43,493 nucleotides of DNA from a virus. Below, piece by piece: positions 13,038-25,176 of this stretch. The translations under genes and the position numbers were made by a program. How positions within the stretch are numbered: position 1 is the first letter of the stretch; every line of letters begins with the position of its first letter. The notes under the pieces are model-generated. The model had not been told where the DNA came from. It did not search any database and saw nothing but the letters and a program-made list of their open reading frames with translations. The stretch spans positions 1-43,493 of IMG/VR virus record IMGVR_UViG_3300021957_000081; one strand, written 5' to 3'.

Positions 13038-15077
13038 TTATTTTGTTGTTGCTATGAAAACACCGTTCCAATCTTTAGGTAGGTCTTGTGTCTTCATGTA
13101 TAGACATCTTTCAATCCACATCTCATAGTACTTATCTAATTGTCCACCAAACTCACCCATTAAATCTTGACACATCCGTATAGATTTGTTGAAATTTTGG
13201 GTAGTATAGTGTTCGTGCATCAAATGATGTTTCTCCTGTGACACCTTGTCACAATTTTTGTCTATAACAGTATATATACGGATACCCACAGTCTTACCTT
13301 TAACTGCAAGGTCGTCTATTTTTAGATAAAAGAAATCATCTTTAGTCTGATTGTAGGTATTCTCACCTACTAATAGGACACATCCATATTCTTTACATTT
13401 TGATTCTATTCTTGCGGCAGTACTTACTGAGTCTCCAAGCACATCATAACTGTGTCGTAAAGTAGAACCCATTTCGCCAAGATAACCAAGACCAGTATTA
13501 ATGCCAGCTCCCATACCCACTGGTGGGCGTCCCTCTTTTGTAATTTTATCATTGAATATCTCCACTGCCTTTAACATATCTAATCCACACTGCACCGCTG
13601 TTTTAGGGTGTTGTGGATCATTAATTGGTGCGTTATGGACATGCATTGATGCATCACCAATGTACTTGATAACCATACCGTCTGCATCTAATATCGGTTG
13701 AGTAATGGCATCCATATACCCATTCATTATTTTTGTCAACCCCTTAACGTCATCACCAAATGATTCGCCCAATGGAGTGAACCCTCGTAGGTCTGAGAAA
13801 CAGATTGATATCTCTTTCTTCATACCGTCTTTAATAAGTGCTGGGTTCTCTTGTAATAGTCGTACAACTGTAGGTGATGCATACCCAGCAAACTGTTTCT
13901 TGATAGCCTGTTTCTCAAAGAATTCCTTTGTGAACCTATTGAATATTGCATGGAATCCAACCAGTGTTGTTACCATAACAACCCAACTCCAATCAATCAA
14001 CCATAGATGATTAATGAAGTAATAGTATGAACCATATACTGCACCAACTGGAATTGCAATAATCATAATACCAGATAACCAGTATGGAGCTCTGTTTGCA
14101 ATAAGTACTAATAACAATCCAAGTCCAAGTGCAGACAACCATTCCAAGAATGTTGATTCTGGAAATCTAATAAGTGTCTCACCGTTTAGGATTGTCTGTA
14201 AGGATGTAGCAACTGGAACATACGAATACTGTTCACCTTTAGGTGTTGCAATAATACTACCAAGTCCCTCAGCAGTAGTCGCAATGATTACTGTCTTACC
14301 AGCAAGGGAACTGTAGTCATTAGATGTTGCGCTTAGTGTAGGGAAATCTGTATTGTATCTCAACCATATTCTACCGAATGTATCAGTTTTGATTGTAGGA
14401 TATGATGGTACACGCATTGCAGTGATACCACCTTCTTGTGTCTTAACTTGATATGATGGGTCGCCTGTTGCAACACGAATAGTTTCCATTGCAATAGATG
14501 GGAATATCTCTTCTCCGACTCTCATTAAAAGTGGTAAACGTCTTACAACTCCGTCTATCTCCGGCACAGTTGATATTACACCAACTCCATCTGCATTTAA
14601 TCCTAGTAACTCTATTGGCCCCAACATACCGTCCCACTCAAATAACCAAGGAAGTGGGTCACCTATCTTAGCGACACCTCTGGGAACTGCATTCTTATTT
14701 GTTTGAGAAGTTCCTGTTTGTGCAATGACAACACCATTACCAGCAAGTGATTGTGCTAAGTCCATATCACCACCAAGTCTATCCTGTTCTGAGAACAAAA
14801 TAGGTAAGATGATTATCCCAGCGCCTGCTTCTCTGAGTTGCCATATCATATCTGCAATGACAGTTCTCTTCCAAGGCCACTGTCCATACTTCTCAATAGA
14901 CTTTTCGTCTATTTCTAGTATCGCAATGTCTGAAGATATCTGTGGAGTATCGTATTGTTGAATTAAATCAAATGATTTTAAACGTAGAGTTTCCTTAACA
15001 AAAGGGTCACTCCACCCAATCCAAGAAATAATACTAAGTGTTATTAGGGCAGTTGCCCAATGCGTAATCCATTTCAT
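13038..15077 (-). CDS. CHASE2-domain membrane adenylate/guanylate cyclase
   Basis: A 679-residue sensor cyclase. Order: one N-terminal membrane helix (residues 5-22), a periplasmic CHASE2 domain (about 30-300: WPWKRTVIADMI, GVGVISTVPEIDGVVRRLPL), three membrane helices (about 310-376) and a class III cyclase domain (about 420-605). Metal aspartates are D429 (FSDLRGF) and D475 (KYIGDA); K471 and D545 are purine-selecting positions typical of adenylate cyclases; R556 is the transition-state arginine. The usual asparagine partner is Ser552. Makes cyclic nucleotide in the host cytoplasm in response to an envelope signal. Last large gene of the curli-like cassette. Confidence 0.92.
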   Translation of the reverse strand: MKWITHWATALITLSIISWIGWSDPFVKETLRLKSFDLIQQYDTPQISSDIAILEIDEKSIEKYGQWPWKRTVIADMIWQLREAGAGIIILPILFSEQDRLGGDMDLAQSLAGNGVVIAQTGTSQTNKNAVPRGVAKIGDPLPWLFEWDGMLGPIELLGLNADGVGVISTVPEIDGVVRRLPLLMRVGEEIFPSIAMETIRVATGDPSYQVKTQEGGITAMRVPSYPTIKTDTFGRIWLRYNTDFPTLSATSNDYSSLAGKTVIIATTAEGLGSIIATPKGEQYSYVPVATSLQTILNGETLIRFPESTFLEWLSALGLGLLLVLIANRAPYWLSGIMIIAIPVGAVYGSYYYFINHLWLIDWSWVVMVTTLVGFHAIFNRFTKEFFEKQAIKKQFAGYASPTVVRLLQENPALIKDGMKKEISICFSDLRGFTPLGESFGDDVKGLTKIMNGYMDAITQPILDADGMVIKYIGDASMHVHNAPINDPQHPKTAVQCGLDMLKAVEIFNDKITKEGRPPVGMGAGINTGLGYLGEMGSTLRHSYDVLGDSVSTAARIESKCKEYGCVLLVGENTYNQTKDDFFYLKIDDLAVKGKTVGIRIYTVIDKNCDKVSQEKHHLMHEHYTTQNFNKSIRMCQDLMGEFGGQLDKYYEMWIERCLYMKTQDLPKDWNGVFIATTK

Positions 15078-15093
15078 ACGGTTATTTAGTAGT

Positions 15094-15810
15094 TTAGTAT
15101 TGTGTTACTGAAACGCTACACCCATTTGAATTGGCACAAAATTGTGTAACACTGTATGAATTTAATCCTGTATCTTGCCAACCACTACCTAGTTGTTGAA
15201 TATTTGCAGTGACAGGGCCACCACCATTAGTTACGTCTACATTAGCAACATTACGCATTGACCTTTGGTATACTATTACACTATTGTCATCACCAGTTAC
15301 ACTGATGTTTGCTTCGACTTCGCCATAACTATCACTTTGGTGTTTTACTGTATTATCATCACCGTCAATCTCAATATTACTTTCTTTAAGTCCACCCCAA
15401 TCCATAGTACTATATGAATGACTTCCGTTACTTGGGTTTGAAAAGATGCTTTGTGCTTTATTGCGGTCACCAACAATATCAATATTGGTTATATTTTCAT
15501 TAGTATTATTTTGTCCAGTTGCATGTGCTACGACAACCGTGTTATCGTCACCAACTGTACTACTTGTTACAGTAGAATCATCACTTGCGACACCATCTGC
15601 CCAACCGTGTGCGTTACCGTTCATATCTGTACAATTTGAATCATTGTTGATAGCACAATACTGAAAGTAGTTGCCACTACCATCTTGAACAACTTCTAAA
15701 GTAAGATCGTCACCAACTTGGTTCACATATATTTCATTTGCCATACAAGATTGTGCATAGAAAAAAGATACGAATAGGACTTTACCTAACTTGGATAATA
15801 GTGATTTCAT
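15094..15810 (-). CDS. Secreted curlin-like repeat protein (CsgA/CsgB-like), copy B
   Basis: Start chosen at ATG 15810 behind GGAGAAGGAAG. The protein has a signal peptide ending near SCMA, then EIYVNQVGDDLTLEVVQDG and further N/D/G/S-rich repeats with V-x-G-D-x-N-x-V units (VGDDNTVVV, DGDDNTVKH, TGDDNSVIV), ending SVSVTQY. These loosely follow the curlin repeat x-Q-x-G-x-x-N. It is probably an extracellular beta-solenoid or amyloid subunit exported through the CsgG encoded upstream. Six cysteines or so are unusual for curlins. It overlaps the FecR gene by 29 bases. Confidence 0.8.
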   Translation of the reverse strand: MKSLLSKLGKVLFVSFFYAQSCMANEIYVNQVGDDLTLEVVQDGSGNYFQYCAINNDSNCTDMNGNAHGWADGVASDDSTVTSSTVGDDNTVVVAHATGQNNTNENITNIDIVGDRNKAQSIFSNPSNGSHSYSTMDWGGLKESNIEIDGDDNTVKHQSDSYGEVEANISVTGDDNSVIVYQRSMRNVANVDVTNGGGPVTANIQQLGSGWQDTGLNSYSVTQFCANSNGCSVSVTQY

Positions 15811-16903
15811 TATTACTTCCTTCTCCAATAGGTATATCGTAGAGTTCTATTTCATCTTGTTTCAAATTAATTCTGTAGTCGTGGTTCTTACTCAAATTAG
15901 CATCAAACACATTATTACCACCATCTCTTCTAAATTTCCAGTTTGTATTGTAATCATATATCTCAACACCTGTATCTGGATTTTTACCTAACGCCACACC
16001 ATCTTGCATTTTAGTAAATTCATCTCTCATCTGCAACGCAAGTTGTTCATTAAGAATATCTAAAATATCTGCAAGCAAATCTGCACCAAGCCAATCTAAG
16101 TCTAATTCAGTTGACCATGTTGAATCTTTAACATCTAATAATTCGTTAGTTTGAAATGCATCAAACTGAAGAAAATCTATTCCTAAGAAATCTGCAAGTT
16201 TCTTCGCTCTTTCAGCTTCATCATCAACTTCTAATTCTATAGGTTTCTTTCGAATTAATAAATTTAAAATACTATTCTCATCCAAATCAAGTATTACTGG
16301 TTTAGAAGGTTCTGAGTATGGACTAGGCACAATTGTTGCTTGGAATGCTTGGTTCATTATAACCATACCAACTTCTGAAGCCACTGTAATTTCACCAACA
16401 ACACAAATACCAAAGTCATTACACGATGGTAGAAGGATAATTGTACTACTACCAAGTTCATCTATTGTCATAGAAAAATCAGTACCCCTAACACCAACTA
16501 CGGCGGTAGGAGTCCTGATCTTTATATTTTGTCTACTGTTTTTTGCAATTTGTCCAGATGCATATCTCATTGTACCAAAAGAGGCCTTCAGAGATAATGA
16601 ACCTGTCTGAGTATTAGGGTCATATACAAATGAATCAATGATTAACTTTGAGTGTTCTGTTACATCCACTCTAGTATCATCTATGAATTCAATAGCAGTT
16701 CTTCCATTCTTTGTACGAACAGTATCCATTGATTCCATACCGAAACCTTTGTCTATAGAGTCAAATCCATCTTCTCCACGTTCAATATTAGTAACACCCT
16801 TTTGTTCTATAACTTGTCCAATATTAGCATACGCCGAACTTGTTATTATAACAAAAAATATACTAGTCAGACTGCACGATATCAATGTCAAAACTATCAC
16901 CAT
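15782..16903 (-). CDS. FecR-domain periplasmic protein
   Basis: About 373 residues with a signal peptide (hydrophobic to residue 25, cleavage after AYA). The FecR-type core is RTPTAVVGVRGTDFSMTID around residue 130, preceded by a beta-rich stretch (TRVDVTEHSKLII, FGTMRYASGQIAK). The C-terminal half is acidic and Leu/Asp-rich. FecR-domain proteins sense or transmit envelope signals and often occur with CHASE2 cyclases in bacteria. It lies between the two curlin-like genes and overlaps both, so production is coupled. The first ATG is 16903, with 40 bases of overlap. Confidence 0.85.
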   Translation of the reverse strand: MVIVLTLISCSLTSIFFVIITSSAYANIGQVIEQKGVTNIERGEDGFDSIDKGFGMESMDTVRTKNGRTAIEFIDDTRVDVTEHSKLIIDSFVYDPNTQTGSLSLKASFGTMRYASGQIAKNSRQNIKIRTPTAVVGVRGTDFSMTIDELGSSTIILLPSCNDFGICVVGEITVASEVGMVIMNQAFQATIVPSPYSEPSKPVILDLDENSILNLLIRKKPIELEVDDEAERAKKLADFLGIDFLQFDAFQTNELLDVKDSTWSTELDLDWLGADLLADILDILNEQLALQMRDEFTKMQDGVALGKNPDTGVEIYDYNTNWKFRRDGGNNVFDANLSKNHDYRINLKQDEIELYDIPIGEGSNNEITIIQVR

Positions 16904-17585
16904 CAATGCTAAGGTCTACAGTCTGGTCTTTAATTCCACTCTGATTAATATCAATTGTACCACCACCGCCAGTTACATCTACTTCTATTCCGTGTCCGTG
17001 TACTCCATTACCTGTCTGTATTGTTGTTACTTTAACACCTTCATCACTATTAGCACTTGTAGTTGCTAATGATGCACTATTATCAATATTAACTGTAAGA
17101 GCAGCATAAGTTCCATTTATTGTAGAGTTAATAATATTATTATCTCCATCAACAACAAAATTAACTACTGAATTTGAAGCGTCAGCTGTCTCTCCAATGT
17201 CAAATGAAAAGGCGTTGGTATCGCCTTCTGTTGTAATATTGAGAGTAATATCGTCACAATTCCCAGCTGCAGAAGTACTACAATCTAAGTCTACTGTGTT
17301 ACTAGAACCAGTAAATTCCCAGAGACCAGTATAGTCTGCACCCTTAATTGTCGCAGTAATTATGTTATAATTACCTTGTTGGGTTATGTCGAAATTCATC
17401 CCATCTCCATTAATCACAGCAGCAGTAGTAGCATTGCCTACTTTGTTATCAGTACCGTCCTGTGTAATGTCTAGGTCTAGATTGTCGCCAACTTGTGTGA
17501 TATAAATTTCATTTGCTCCAAGTATGGAAGGCAACATCAATGCAGTCATCATAATAAAGATTGACCCTACTATATTTTTGGTCAT
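16863..17585 (-). CDS. Secreted curlin-like repeat protein (CsgA/CsgB-like), copy A
   Basis: A 240-residue protein with a signal peptide (MTKNIVGSIFIMMTALMLP, cleavage near LGA) and a mature start NEIYITQVGDNLDLDITQDG, almost the same as the start of copy B (NEIYVNQVGDDL). Repeated I-T-Q-x-G-x-(Y/D)-N units and V-D-G-D-x-N-x-I units follow, with Asn, Gly and Thr enriched and almost no Lys or Arg. Composition and repeats fit an exported curlin-type fibre subunit. Signal-peptide Met has TAAGGAGAAG ahead of it. Sits directly after csgG. Confidence 0.82.
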   Translation of the reverse strand: MTKNIVGSIFIMMTALMLPSILGANEIYITQVGDNLDLDITQDGTDNKVGNATTAAVINGDGMNFDITQQGNYNIITATIKGADYTGLWEFTGSSNTVDLDCSTSAAGNCDDITLNITTEGDTNAFSFDIGETADASNSVVNFVVDGDNNIINSTINGTYAALTVNIDNSASLATTSANSDEGVKVTTIQTGNGVHGHGIEVDVTGGGGTIDINQSGIKDQTVDLSIDGDSFDIDIVQSD

Positions 17586-17594
17586 TTCTTCTCC

Positions 17595-18401
17595 TTATTG
17601 TAAGCTTGCGTCTTCGTAACTCCACAAACCTTTTGTTTCGCCCTTTCTTATCATATCAATAACTGCTTGGTCGATTGCACATTTAACTGCAACAGAAGTC
17701 GGCTCATTTGCGGCCGCACCACTTTCTAATTCAAATGCTTTAGTTCCCAAATCGAAGAATCTAAATACATTCAAATCGTCCTTTACACTGGCAATTGTTT
17801 TAGTAACATTAGTGGCTAATATTACCTTACCAGAATTCACTGAAACAAGTCTCATTGAAACTGTTACTTGATCCGTTCTGTAAGAAGTATCACCGCCTAC
17901 TCCAAAGTAACGCAATCCGTTACCACCGCTGACGATATTGGCATCATAACCTACGATACCTCCTTCTAATATTAAACCAGCTAACTTTAAGGGCTTAAGT
18001 TCTGGTTTTTTTTCGCCTTTTTCATATTGTTCATATGTGGATTTTGCTAGTTGTCTTTCTTTAACTAGGTTATTAAGTCCACCTCTTTCAATCACTATAA
18101 ACCAATCGCCCTTTGAGGCACTTTGTAATGCATCTATAACCCAGGCATCTGCTCCTTGGGTTACAGCAGAAGATAGTGATGAAAATCTTTCATTAGGTTT
18201 TCGTTGTCCTGTTTTATCCTTAAACTCATAAACTGCAATAGTCATTGGAGGAGCATCAAGTTTTGGTAAATCTTCTAATTTTTCTTGAACACCACTTACA
18301 AATTCAGTTGGCGGTAGTACTTCTAATTTATCCTGTACTACTGCTTGTGTACATCCTCCCAATAAGCAAGTTGCAATAATAAATATAACAAGATGTTCCA
18401 T
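17595..18401 (-). CDS. csgG: CsgG-type curli secretion channel lipoprotein
   Basis: A 268-residue lipoprotein: signal MEHLVIFIIATCLLGGC with lipobox LGGC and Cys17. Family signatures are MTIAVYEFKDKTGQRKP, then FIVIERGGLNNLVKERQLA, LAGLILEGGIVGYDANI and RYFGVGGDTSYRTDQVTVS. CsgG forms a nonameric outer-membrane pore that exports curli subunits. The usual start at 18413 in frame is TTG; ATG 18401 directly after the csgF stop is better. In a phage the channel could export the two curlin-like proteins or simply open the outer membrane. Confidence 0.95.
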   Translation of the reverse strand: MEHLVIFIIATCLLGGCTQAVVQDKLEVLPPTEFVSGVQEKLEDLPKLDAPPMTIAVYEFKDKTGQRKPNERFSSLSSAVTQGADAWVIDALQSASKGDWFIVIERGGLNNLVKERQLAKSTYEQYEKGEKKPELKPLKLAGLILEGGIVGYDANIVSGGNGLRYFGVGGDTSYRTDQVTVSMRLVSVNSGKVILATNVTKTIASVKDDLNVFRFFDLGTKAFELESGAAANEPTSVAVKCAIDQAVIDMIRKGETKGLWSYEDASLQ

Positions 18402-18402
18402 A

Positions 18403-18855
18403 CTAAAATCCAAATCCTGTCAATGGAACTACGAGTTCGGTAAATGAACCATCTTCTTCAGTAATCTGAACTGTAATGGTGCCTGCTGTTAAATCCTTTT
18501 CCCAGTATATGGTTGCACCTTCTAAGTCAGCAGTACCAGATAGAGCACCATCATCTTCAAACATACTATCAACTAGATTCTTAGAAATTTGAGCATAAAT
18601 TCTAGATTCTACGTTTTGAATAAATTTGTTTATAGTTTTATTTGCTTCTTCTCTTGCTGCTTCTCGATCAGCTGCATCAAGATCATCTTGTAATTTTTCT
18701 TTCCTATTATGTTCAATCTGAGCGATTGATAAAAAATGTTGTGACTGTCCAATTCCACTAAATGATGGACTTCCAAAACTGTGTACTAAATCGCCTGCAT
18801 AACTAATTGTCGGTATTATTGCTAACAGACTTATTGTTGCTTTTAACGTCTTCAT
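18403..18855 (-). CDS. csgF: CsgF-type curli assembly factor
   Basis: A 150-residue protein with a signal peptide (MKTLKATISLLAIIPTISYA) and the CsgF N-terminal motif GDLVHSFGSPSFSG right after cleavage, the part which enters the CsgG pore in bacterial systems. Then follow Q-rich and coiled helical segments and a beta C-terminus (TITVQITEEDGSF). CsgF caps CsgG on the cell surface and helps nucleate fibres. It is adjacent to csgG, stop and start one base apart. Start 18855 is chosen from the signal peptide; longer in-frame starts overlap the upstream gene more. Confidence 0.9.
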   Translation of the reverse strand: MKTLKATISLLAIIPTISYAGDLVHSFGSPSFSGIGQSQHFLSIAQIEHNRKEKLQDDLDAADREAAREEANKTINKFIQNVESRIYAQISKNLVDSMFEDDGALSGTADLEGATIYWEKDLTAGTITVQITEEDGSFTELVVPLTGFGF

Positions 18856-21917: not shown

Positions 21918-22133
21918 TCACCCTTTTCGGCGTGGCCGAAATGGCACCTTAGTAGAGTTATCTTCTAACCTTTTAGATAGAATACCACAACGCTTCACTA
22001 ACTCTGCGTTATCGTATTCCAAAGATTTAACTCGTTCACCTGTTTCCACAAGCTTTGCACGATAAAAATCTCGTTCTCTAGCAAGTTCATTCGATTCGTT
22101 TGAACGAACTGGATCTGCTGTTTGCACTTCCAT
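21918..22133 (-). CDS. Small coiled-coil protein (71 aa)
   Basis: A 71-residue protein made mostly of one charged coiled coil (ELARERDFYRAKLVETGERV then KSLEYDNAELVKR) and a basic end (PFRPRRKG). It is stop-start coupled to gp59. No known family; possibly a partner of the replication proteins encoded beside it, by position only. Confidence 0.6.
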   Translation of the reverse strand: MEVQTADPVRSNESNELARERDFYRAKLVETGERVKSLEYDNAELVKRCGILSKRLEDNSTKVPFRPRRKG

Positions 22134-22714
22134 TAGAATGTCTCCCTTATCAACTGGAGCAGTTTCGTTTTACATTTCTCTCTATCATAAGAAAGGAATG
22201 CGGCGTACTTGACGATTAAACGTCTATTATCTGGCCATACTAAGTCATCACTTAACCCTTTATCAAATCGTTTCACATAATGCAGTAACCCTTGTAGAAT
22301 CACTGCGGTTTCGATATTGATTCTCTTAGCGAGAATGTTCTTTAATAATACAGGATGTTTACCAGTTTGTAAAGAGAAAATTGAATCAAAATCCTCTACT
22401 TGTGAAAATAAAAAACTCATGTCATTTATGAAGTTATAGGTCAATGCCTGTTTGTACTTCACATATTGATTGTAATTATCTTCACTAAAATCACCTAACC
22501 ATCCTTTAGGCGACTTTACAAAGTTTGCAATATAATACTCTAGTGTCTTATCGTCATACTTCTTAGCTACACGAGCAAAGAAAAATCTATCCCTTCTTTT
22601 TAAGAATGATGCCTTTGTTGCAGAAGTCTTCCCACCATATCTTGTATAGTCGTAATTAGTCGTAAAATGCAACTTGAGACCAAGGTACATTTGGTAGGAC
22701 TCCCATGCTTCCAT
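22133..22714 (-). CDS. 59: Helicase loader gp59
   Basis: A 193-residue, all-helical, basic protein with the gp59 N-terminal pattern: YQMYLGLKLHFTTNYDYTRY, GGKTSATKASFLKRRDRFFF, then YYIANFVKSPKGWLGDF. T4 gp59 (217 residues) binds fork DNA and gp32 and loads the gp41 helicase. AAGGAGTGATCC precedes the ATG. It lies between gp33 and a small gene, with gp32 2 kb downstream, as in other T4-like replication clusters. Confidence 0.85.
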   Translation of the reverse strand: MEAWESYQMYLGLKLHFTTNYDYTRYGGKTSATKASFLKRRDRFFFARVAKKYDDKTLEYYIANFVKSPKGWLGDFSEDNYNQYVKYKQALTYNFINDMSFLFSQVEDFDSIFSLQTGKHPVLLKNILAKRINIETAVILQGLLHYVKRFDKGLSDDLVWPDNRRLIVKYAAFLSYDREKCKTKLLQLIRETF

Positions 22715-22725
22715 TGGATCACTCC

Positions 22726-22965
22726 TTAGATTGGTAGGGTTGCTACTCTAGGCAAGAAGTTTAATTCTCTTGCATCTGCTTCAATTTTTTCTTTAAGTGG
22801 TCTTGAGATGAGCGGTGCAATTGCATCAGGCTCCATCTGATTTTTTTCACAATAATCTAATATAGCATCCATGTATGTAGTAACACCACCACCATTAGCA
22901 ACGACTTTTTCAATTTTGATTGCAAACTTCTTTGGTGTCATAACTGCAATTTCTTCTAGATTCAT
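22726..22965 (-). CDS. 33: Late transcription coactivator gp33
   Basis: A 79-residue protein matching the phage late-transcription coactivator pattern: VMTPKKFAIKIEKVVANGGG, TYMDAILDYCEKNQMEPDA, LISRPLKEKIEADARELNFL. In T4, gp33 links host RNA polymerase to the sliding clamp gp45 so that gp55-polymerase can use TATAAATA promoters, several of which are found here. Shorter than T4 gp33 (112). Followed on its 3' side by a hairpin and the tRNA/tmRNA region reads toward it. Confidence 0.85.
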   Translation of the reverse strand: MNLEEIAVMTPKKFAIKIEKVVANGGGVTTYMDAILDYCEKNQMEPDAIAPLISRPLKEKIEADARELNFLPRVATLPI

Positions 22966-23045: not shown

Positions 23046-23119
23046 TGGAGCGGATGGATGGTAATGCACCACCTTCTATTGGTTGGAAACCTATTGTAAT
23101 ACTTTTATACTACATCCGC
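23046..23119 (-). tRNA. tRNA-Gly(UCC)-like gene lacking D-loop GG and TTC motifs
   Basis: Exactly 74 bases like its neighbour and aligned without gaps. The acceptor stem (GCGGATG/CATCCGC), a T stem (GGTGG/CCATC), anticodon loop TTTCCAA (anticodon TCC), T73 and CCA are kept. The D loop is AAAAGTA instead of AGTGGTA and the T loop TGCATTA instead of TTCGATT, and the D and anticodon stems each have one mismatch. Acceptor and T stems changed in compensating pairs relative to the neighbour. Either a decaying duplicate or a specialised tRNA; see findings. Confidence 0.6.
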
Positions 23120-23127
23120 TTAAAACT

Positions 23128-23201
23128 TGGAGCGGGCGAAGAGAATCGAACTCCTATCCATAGGTTGGAAACCTACTGCATTACCACTATGCTACGCCCG
23201 C
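23128..23201 (-). tRNA. tRNA-Gly (TCC anticodon)
   Basis: Complete 74-base cloverleaf: acceptor GCGGGCG/CGCCCGC, D stem GCAT/ATGC with loop AGTGGTA, anticodon stem GTAGG/CCTAT with loop TTTCCAA (UCC), T stem AGGAG/CTCTT with loop TTCGATT, T73 and encoded CCA. Reads GGA and GGG glycine codons, which are plausible rare codons in an AT-rich host. Confidence 0.95.
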
Positions 23202-23350: not shown

Positions 23351-23774
23351 GTTCACCACCTTTACCACGGCCATTGTAACCACTAAACACACTTGGTTTT
23401 CGTTTAGCTGTTTCGAATGTTGCTACTGTAACTGCAACTGCGGCAAGTAACAATGCATGTAATACCATACTAATTACTCCTGCCCACATACTACTTACTA
23501 TGATAGCAAATACAATACACCACATCCACGCAAGAACTTGCATAATCATATGTCGTGTACTGAAGTCTGGAATATTACTTAACGGATTCTTTTCGTGATC
23601 CATTACTACGTTCCAACAATTATATACCCATTCTCTCATACTTATCACCTTCCTAAAAGTTACCTTTAAAGGATAGTGTGCATCAACATCATCACGATAT
23701 TCGATTGCATCATTTACATTGTGAAACTCTTCAGAAACTTTACTATTTCTAAACCATGCTGTCACTTTATACAT
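23343..23774 (-). CDS. Membrane protein with two helices (143 aa)
   Basis: The first half is soluble (MYKVTAWFRNSKVSEEFHNV, a beta-alpha pattern seen in small phage proteins), followed by two adjacent membrane helices at about residues 78-125 (LAWMWCIVFAIIVSSMWAG, VLHALLLAAVAVTVATF) and a Gly-rich basic tail. No family recognised. It begins about 20 bases after the tmRNA, with GGAAGGATAG as ribosome site, so tmRNA and this gene may share a transcript. Confidence 0.65.
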   Translation of the reverse strand: MYKVTAWFRNSKVSEEFHNVNDAIEYRDDVDAHYPLKVTFRKVISMREWVYNCWNVVMDHEKNPLSNIPDFSTRHMIMQVLAWMWCIVFAIIVSSMWAGVISMVLHALLLAAVAVTVATFETAKRKPSVFSGYNGRGKGGEHE

Positions 23775-23843
23775 TGTCTATCCTTCCCATAATTAAGTAG
23801 TAGGTTATTCTGTTACTAGGAAACCTACCGAAACCCTATCCAA

Positions 23844-23888
23844 TCACGCTGCTAGAGCGAAACCTTGAGGTGCAAAATTATCGTTTGC
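23844..23888 (-). other. tmRNA tag reading frame
   Basis: Resume codon GCA at 23888-23886, then AAC GAT AAT TTT GCA CCT CAA GGT TTC GCT CTA GCA GCG TGA. The 14-residue tag ANDNFAPQGFALAA begins with the AND common to many tags and ends in ALAA, the ClpXP/ClpAP recognition end. It is longer than the 10-residue E. coli tag ANDENYALAA. Confidence 0.92.
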
Positions 23889-23970
23889 GTTTAGTTTTGT
23901 TAGACTATCAGGCGTCTATCCCACAGTTCTACTCTTTCCTATTCCTATCAGTCGATCCTAGTTCGCCCCC

Positions 23971-24055
23971 ATCAAAAATGCATTAACTTCGACATCCCCT
24001 TAGGGCCATCTATGTTCTGCAAAACTTCCTATTGCAGTAGGACGTAATGCACTTT
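23971..24055 (-). other. Intervening segment of the tmRNA precursor
   Basis: 85 bases between the CCA of the acceptor piece and the 5' end of the coding piece. It forms a closing stem (AAAAGTGCATTA/TAATGCATTTTT with one G-U) and inner hairpins CTGCAA/TTGCAG and CCCT/AGGGG. In two-piece tmRNAs this segment is cut out by host tRNA-processing enzymes. Confidence 0.8.
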
Positions 24056-24125
24056 TGGTGGAGGCGTTGGGTACTGCCCCCAAGTCCTGTCTAGTATTCA
24101 GATTGTATCAACAAACTGTATATTA

Positions 24126-24154
24126 TTTATACCATAGTAATGTTTGATTGTCAA
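24126..24154 (-). promoter_or_regulatory. sigma70-type promoter of the tmRNA
   Basis: TTGACA (24154-24149), 17-base spacer, TATAAA (24131-24126) on the minus strand. The predicted start (about 24119) falls exactly at the P2 strand of the acceptor piece. The -10 region also reads TATAAATA, so host and late polymerase forms could both use it. Confidence 0.82.
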
Positions 24155-24164
24155 TAACTTTTTA

Positions 24165-24497
24165 TTATAAATCAACTCCAAGTGTTCTAAGTTTGTCAAA
24201 ACCTCTACCTGTTGCAAGAATACAACCAAGTCCTTTATCTTTTGAAAACTCTAGTACACTCCATGACTTTGTTGATAACCCTACCGAAATAACTAATATA
24301 GTTTCGATATATGTGCCATCATTCTTTTGAGTTATCCCATTCATAGATAAGAATGGAACTTCTCCGAAATTTTTAGTAATCTCAACTAATTCTTGTGCAG
24401 GGCCACACTGGACAGGTTTTTGTGCCCAGAATGGTTCTGCTGAAACTGCACTACTAAGCAGTAACGCTGGTAGTATTGATAACATTACTTTCTTCAT
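24165..24497 (-). CDS. Small secreted protein with signal peptide (110 aa)
   Basis: Start chosen at ATG 24497, where a clear signal peptide begins (MKKVMLSILPALLLSSAVSA, cleavage before EPFW). Mature part is about 90 residues with two cysteines (VQCGPAQE and LGCILATG), possibly a disulphide. Proteins of this type (Q-C-G-P, a short beta region) are common but unannotated in marine phages. Overlaps the end of the nuclease gene by 44 bases. Periplasmic; function unknown. Confidence 0.7.
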   Translation of the reverse strand: MKKVMLSILPALLLSSAVSAEPFWAQKPVQCGPAQELVEITKNFGEVPFLSMNGITQKNDGTYIETILVISVGLSTKSWSVLEFSKDKGLGCILATGRGFDKLRTLGVDL

Positions 24498-25176
24498 TGT
24501 CTTTTTCCCATTGTTCTGTGAACATATCAATGGTTTCTACGAGATGAGGCAGATATTCATGCTTCTCTTTTACAAACTCTTGAACTAGTCCATCTTCTGT
24601 GACAACAAGAATAACAATCTGATTGATTTCAATTCCTGTTCTCTCTTCAAACATTTCTGCATATGCAGATGCTTGCATGTAGTACTCAAAATTATAATCA
24701 TCCTTTCGTTCAGAACGAGAGGTTTTGAAATCAATAATGGATGGTACACCATTCCACTCTGCGATACAGTCCACACGGCCTGCAACACGATACTTCTCAC
24801 TCCACAATCCACACTCTTGTGCGAATATATTATTTATGGACTTCTCCAAAGTTGGTTTTAGTTGTGAGAACAAACACCAAGGTAAGAATTTCTGTTCATC
24901 TTTGACAACCTCTTTATTATTTAAGAAGTCTTCACACATATGGTGAACAGCAGTTCCACGGCCTGCAGCACTACGCATGATATGATTTGCAACATCATTA
25001 CCAACACGTTCACGCCACTTTCGTAGTCCTTCTTTCTTTTCCTTACGAACACCTAACACTGTTGTGATAGATGGATAGAACCCTGTAGGCGTATCATAGA
25101 AACGCTTGCGGTCTATATTTTTAGTAGATACCTCTGGGATATCAATTGGATTATGTATAAACATATTCTTCCTCAT
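24454..25176 (-). CDS. PD-(D/E)XK exonuclease
   Basis: A 240-residue nuclease with RecB-like core: H-M-C-E-D (motif near residue 80), GRVDCIAEW near 133-141, IIDFKTS near 147-153 (the D and E/D-x-K positions) and YYMQASAYAEMFEE near 165-178, which is the QxxxY helix of RecB-family enzymes. Such exonucleases occur in most T4-like marine phages and may degrade host DNA or process recombination ends. ATG 25176 is nine bases after the predicted start site; ATG 25164 behind GAGGAAG is an alternative. Confidence 0.85.
   Translation of the reverse strand: MRKNMFIHNPIDIPEVSTKNIDRKRFYDTPTGFYPSITTVLGVRKEKKEGLRKWRERVGNDVANHIMRSAAGRGTAVHHMCEDFLNNKEVVKDEQKFLPWCLFSQLKPTLEKSINNIFAQECGLWSEKYRVAGRVDCIAEWNGVPSIIDFKTSRSERKDDYNFEYYMQASAYAEMFEERTGIEINQIVILVVTEDGLVQEFVKEKHEYLPHLVETIDMFTEQWEKDNEESNVINTTSVTA

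Follow-up and report, generated by a model that had tools for sequence, protein, structure and literature searches.

Ribosome-rescue RNAs are rare in phage genomes and were counted in 402 of 18,146 (PMC9004378). tmRNA genes have been described in the Bxz1 group of mycobacteriophages, Wildcat, Bacillus phage G, and DS6A, the last of which has the tRNA-like domain only (PMC4131195), and an Rfam permuted model has been presented with 79 unique bacteriophage tmRNAs (PMC11915505). The closest described system is that of the Methylophilales phage Melnitz, for which a two-piece alpha-type tmRNA with alphaproteobacterial affinity and its proposed roles were published in 2022; permuted tmRNAs were present in 17 of the 47 contigs that clustered with Melnitz (PMC9004378). 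The type is, thus, known in such phages, a question that the first-pass annotation of the present locus had left open. The roles that it suggested (the rescue of ribosomes stalled by mRNA decay, the retagging of host proteins, and the replacement of the host tmRNA) resemble those already offered in the same paper. In the portions of the literature available to us, we found no function during infection demonstrated for a phage permuted tmRNA.

The present study concerns a 43,493-nt stretch of viral DNA (IMG/VR record IMGVR_UViG_3300021957_000081), which we call the window. The window phage is marine, and sequence comparisons identify it as a T4-type relative of Melnitz: the large subunit of its ribonucleotide reductase shares 88.5% identity with the Melnitz protein, the next best among the matches listed being 65.1%, and the 4.6-kb region around the tmRNA gene is 74.6% identical over 65% of its length to the four Melnitz records. 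The features of the locus, all on the minus strand, are as follows.

24454..25176, minus: PDDEXK-type exonuclease, upstream, a synteny anchor (phrog_298, E 5.3e-69)
24124..24154, minus: promoter TTGACA-17-TATAAATA, with an early-type -35 and a -10 that doubles as a T4-type late octamer (from the sequence)
24056..24120, minus: acceptor piece with the P2 5' strand, T arm, acceptor-stem 3' strand, and CCA (sequence, Rfam, covariation)
24058-24056, minus: encoded CCA (sequence)
23971..24055, minus: intervening segment of 85 nt, with ends that pair in a stem of 11 or more base pairs (sequence, folding)
23799..23970, minus: coding piece with the GGGGGCG start at 23970, P2 3' strand, tag frame, and AACAGAA 3' hairpin; its 3' end is approximate (sequence, Rfam)
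23844..23888, minus: tag frame ANDNFAPQGFALAA and TGA stop (ARAGORN, tag conservation), with the tag codons at 23888-23847 and TGA at 23846-23844 (read from the sequence)
22726..22965, minus: gp33-like late-transcription regulator, downstream (phrog_254, E 7.1e-21)
22133..22714, minus: helicase loader, downstream, a synteny anchor (phrog_269, E 9.1e-59)

In Melnitz, the annotated SsrA occupies the matching syntenic place, flanked by the PDDEXK nuclease gene on one side and those for gp33 and the helicase loader on the other, and this position in the replication gene block is conserved. The Melnitz gene (MZ577095-MZ577098; PMC9004378) is like that of the window in its permuted alpha type, gene neighbors, and promoter form. 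However, its tag (ANDNYVPVDYALAA) differs from the window tag, its intervening segment is longer, and it is followed by a glutamine riboswitch, whereas none was found in the window. In blastn searches, the window tmRNA was 79.6% identical to that of Melnitz at the DNA level over 70% of the 283-nt query. Among 50,697 phage records, it matched seven: four were Melnitz, and the others were short matches to Sinorhizobium phage Phosso and two records of Pelagibacter phage HTVC008M.

The first-pass annotation had interpreted the locus as a permuted two-piece alpha-type tmRNA, and covariance models, ARAGORN, synteny, and covariation all bore this out. Family membership was tested against RF01849 and RF04321, and both scores were above the curated cut-offs. 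The alpha_tmRNA search, which had been proposed as a check, matched 23799-24158 on the minus strand with 109 bits (cut-off 50, E 5.5e-29), and tmRNA_permuted matched 23844-24117 on the same strand with 101.7 bits (cut-off 47). ARAGORN also called a permuted tmRNA with the tag ANDNFAPQGFALAA, with loose outer bounds (23753-24150). The sequence, ARAGORN, and Rfam agree on the order of acceptor piece, intervening segment, and coding piece. We take the mycobacteriophage tmRNAs to be one-piece molecules. The coordinates and structural elements given earlier (acceptor stem, G3-U70, CCA, P2, tag, and TGA) agree with the sequence: the acceptor stem is GGGGGCG/CGCCTCC with the G3-U70 alanine signal, and TACAGTTT (24120-24113) pairs with GAACTGTG in P2. 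The acceptor piece probably begins at about 24120, as judged from the promoter position, and the intervening segment is expected to be cut out. The fold of the latter (98 nt, -31.8 kcal/mol, z -3.16) was equaled in stability by one of 200 shuffles. Chance or artefact was ruled out by the Rfam scores, the promoter scan, and covariation. Near-identical copies of the region occur on two more IMG/VR contigs (3300017724_000100 and 3300028008_000759), which makes an assembly artefact less likely provided that the samples are independent.

We then consider how widely the gene is kept among relatives. The coding-piece start motif was found in at least 120 viral-contig stretches, with an ARAGORN tmRNA in 74 of the 120 listed. 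Synteny was assessed with the exonuclease (best 80 of 283 relatives) and the helicase loader (47 relatives) as anchors, a sample skewed to close relatives. Among the 67 complete distinct anchor intervals, 48 had an ARAGORN tmRNA, a further 13 had the motif, and six were without a tmRNA. A tmRNA was, thus, present at the syntenic site in 61 of these 67 intervals, or in 40 of 46 clusters at 95% identity (34 by a stricter motif and six by ARAGORN, the sequences of which were inspected). The six unoccupied intervals indicate that the gene is dispensable.

Covariation was examined in 111 distinct phage tmRNAs collected by the motif and reduced to 83 non-redundant sequences (<92% identity). Over the acceptor, T-arm, and P2 helices, 94.5% of cells were paired; the 200 shuffles gave a mean of 75.0% and a maximum of 76.5%, and sliding the strands by 1 to 3 gave 41-52%. 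Two T-arm pairs showed all four Watson-Crick types and were paired in 83/83. The inner P2 pairs were strong, whereas the outer ones were weakly kept (36/68, 46/69, and 47/71 cells). The acceptor stem is near-constant in this set largely because the selection motif fixes it; in a subclade outside the motif set (six sequences, four inspected), two acceptor pairs were changed on both sides (GGGGATG/CATCTCC) with G3-U70 retained. These compensatory changes across the 83 tmRNAs indicate that the two pieces pair with each other. The intervening loop had been described as closed by a stem, and the stem of at least 11 pairs read in the window has counterparts in relatives: the ends of the segment paired at -6 kcal/mol or lower in 66/66, against 28% of mismatched pairs, in a test of segments of at least 30 nt that excluded the 17 of 83 that are shorter. 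The wide, covarying family points to lasting selection. A decaying or accidental copy of a host ssrA without function would be compatible with the many phages of the group that have no tmRNA (17 of 47 related contigs have one [PMC9004378], and six of our 67 intervals have none); however, covariation, the constraint on the tag, and promoter conservation contradict this explanation for the family, and we regard it as very improbable. Therefore, we consider it highly probable, on comparative grounds, that the locus is a complete permuted alpha-type ssrA gene in a Melnitz-like T4-type marine phage, selected for ribosome rescue.

The tag frame has 14 codons and ends in ALAA, a protease signal. The 14-residue tag of the first-pass annotation is, thus, correct for what is encoded (ANDNFAPQGFALAA by ARAGORN), with one small correction: the alanine from the charged tmRNA adds one residue, and the tag carried on a protein would have 15. 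Tags were read in 101 of the 111 phage tmRNAs. Their lengths range from 9 to 29 residues, 14 being the commonest (55/101); 91 start with ANDN and 78 end with ALAA. The final Ala is a condition of tag reading. The penultimate codon encodes Ala in 73/73 non-redundant tags, through four synonymous codons. Two of the phage loci (L094 and L114) have a 29-residue tag, ANDNALSNVTFVDFSAPVTAVNEDFALAA, which is about double the usual length. The permuted tmRNA of alphaproteobacterial chromosomes (RF01849) is like that of the window in piece order, tRNA-like domain, and the ANDN...AA tag frame. It differs in that the window gene is phage-borne and in tag length: among at least 120 sampled genome loci, ARAGORN read a tag in 107 of the 120 listed, the commonest having 12 residues, whereas phage tags mostly have 14; the titles listed include neither Pelagibacter nor Methylophilales, both likely host groups.

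These tags bear on a second explanation, in which the phage tmRNA chiefly competes for SmpB and ribosomes, or steers degradation through a phage-chosen tag, rather than adding rescue capacity. The tag type ANDN-5-[FY]ALAA occurs in 48 of 101 phage tags and in one of 385 alphaproteobacterial genomes, a set that need not include the true hosts. Moreover, the tagging of host proteins has been proposed (PMC9004378), and a DS6A-like molecule consisting of the tRNA-like domain alone was reported to be a strong inhibitor of tmRNA (PMC4131195). Unlike DS6A, the window gene is complete, and its full mRNA-like part and conserved tag frame would be superfluous for a pure decoy. We consider this explanation unlikely.

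Selection for ribosome rescue, the reading that we prefer, makes demands on host factors. Huge phages with a tmRNA have been described, some of which bring SmpB with them (PMC7162821). In contrast, SmpB was found in none of the 17 virus records searched, one of which was the complete Melnitz genome, and SspB in none of 12; the control searches were positive in 10 of 14 and two of 14 genomes, respectively, and most of the virus records may be fragments. The host factors are, thus, presumably used. Transcription would start near 24120, where P2 begins on its 5' side, and host tRNA enzymes would excise the intervening segment. The host would also supply the alanyl-tRNA synthetase and SmpB that load the phage tmRNA, and during infection the loaded RNA would free ribosomes that had stalled on broken messages. 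Ala and ANDNFAPQGFALAA would be appended to the unfinished product, which would be directed to ClpXP or similar proteases of the host.

The gene had also been credited with a promoter of its own, and TTGACA-17-TATAAA is present at 24154-24126 and nowhere else in the window, against an expectation of 0.13 matches and a match in 12 of 100 shuffles. The sigma70 scan omits it because the tool requires T at the last -10 base. Among close relatives (exonuclease >70% identical), TTGAC and the spacer precede TATAAATA in 30/30 distinct loci. TATAAATA was found in 87 of 114 distinct upstream regions, against 2.2% of random 160-nt stretches from the same loci. The octamer alone shows no significant enrichment in the window (nine sites, 4.65 expected, as many in 6 of 100 shuffles). 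The four Melnitz stretches that we read contain 25 TATAAATA sites, which precede the genes for the tail sheath, major capsid, prohead core, baseplate wedge, and tail fibre as well as some non-virion genes; two of the 25 have TTGAC at the right distance, one being that of the tmRNA. Conversely, 14 of the 17 TTGAC-17-TANAAN sites in the window and three Melnitz stretches, a count that omits the Melnitz stretch bearing its tmRNA, end with TATAAT or TACAAT and one with TAAAAG. The remaining two, which read TATAAATA, belong to the window tmRNA and to one Melnitz gene other than the tmRNA.

T4 and KVP40 have TATAAATA as their late promoter, and S-PM2 has NATAAATA (PMC2984593). T4-like late promoters (TATAAAT) are listed for Melnitz, the tmRNA promoter of which is termed early (PMC9004378). 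Overlapping early and late promoters have been discussed for RB49 and S-PM2 (PMC2984593), so that the idea of a composite promoter is not new in itself; in the available portions of the literature, we found no statement of one for a Melnitz-type tmRNA. We infer that the tmRNA promoter would serve both early and late transcription. The conserved composite promoter is an addition to the published picture. It suggests a supply of tmRNA all through infection, when mRNA decay would yield many messages without a stop. We tentatively propose, as a possibility that we hold less likely than its opposite, a rescue RNA dedicated to all stages: it would be transcribed from one composite promoter, by host sigma70 early and by the phage gp55/gp33 polymerase late, and would take over rescue and tagging, with a tag chosen by the phage, after the shutdown of host transcription.

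A different control was proposed for Melnitz, the tmRNA of which is said to be regulated by a glutamine riboswitch (PMC9004378). A strong riboswitch match adjoins the Melnitz gene (L002 9260-9212; 52.8 bits, Rfam cut-off 35). However, the order on the one strand is the alpha_tmRNA match (9685-9268), the aptamer, and gp33 (8955-8710); the aptamer is, thus, located 3' of the tmRNA and upstream of gp33, whereas an element controlling the tmRNA would be expected upstream of the latter. Its position appears to suit control of the downstream gene better than control of the tmRNA. The core motif of the riboswitch, for which the Rfam check covered Melnitz, was found at 14 loci, Melnitz among them, in every case 193-196 nt past the coding-piece start, and in seven of 40 clusters with a tmRNA and none of six without one. 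The window has no match down to E 5. Control of the tmRNA level by this riboswitch is, thus, hardly credible, and its 3' place corrects the published picture. Both this correction and the composite promoter are testable.

Regarding the host, no lineage could be named by tmRNA DNA identity when the 133-nt coding region was compared with 385 alphaproteobacterial genomes; 20 genomes matched (E ≤0.001), 16 of them within the first 28 nt only. One 4.1-Mb alphaproteobacterial genome (G395; locus L390, C2:778482-778808) carries a phage-like tag of 14 residues, ANDNVASQDFALAA; it is the one of the 385 genomes with the ANDN-5-[FY]ALAA type. A prophage copy is disfavored because this is its sole alpha_tmRNA match and is located between the sspB and thymidylate synthase genes. 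Some of these phages may have hosts in the lineage of G395. When 83 phage and 46 host sequences were placed in a quick tree, with strong support on only 20 of 126 inner branches, the phage label changed three times, against 38 in shuffles. The phage-contig sequences L043 and L114 were placed beside hosts, and L276, a sequence from the genome set, fell among phages. L276 (1-8000) is PBDU01000009.1, titled Euryarchaeota archaeon SP339, and its permuted tmRNA groups with phage tmRNAs. It encodes relatives of two window proteins, the helicase loader (38.9%) and the gp32-type single-strand binding protein (67.7%), which identifies it as a T4-like phage contig that was binned with an archaeal MAG. 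Misbinned bacterial contigs have been suspected as the origin of tmRNA genes in archaeal genomes (PMC11915505). Phage contigs in archaeal MAGs may be another source.

Two further observations were made in the window. Two adjacent tRNA-Gly(TCC) genes are located at 23049-23119 and 23128-23201 on the minus strand; the second scores 47.9 bits against 69.6 and was missed by the ARAGORN default run, and, thus, may be a decaying or diverged duplicate. In addition, a CHASE2 adenylate/guanylate cyclase, a curlin-repeat protein, FecR, and CsgG are encoded in one block (13038-18413, minus strand), as in Melnitz, the curli pore genes of which have been discussed (PMC9004378).
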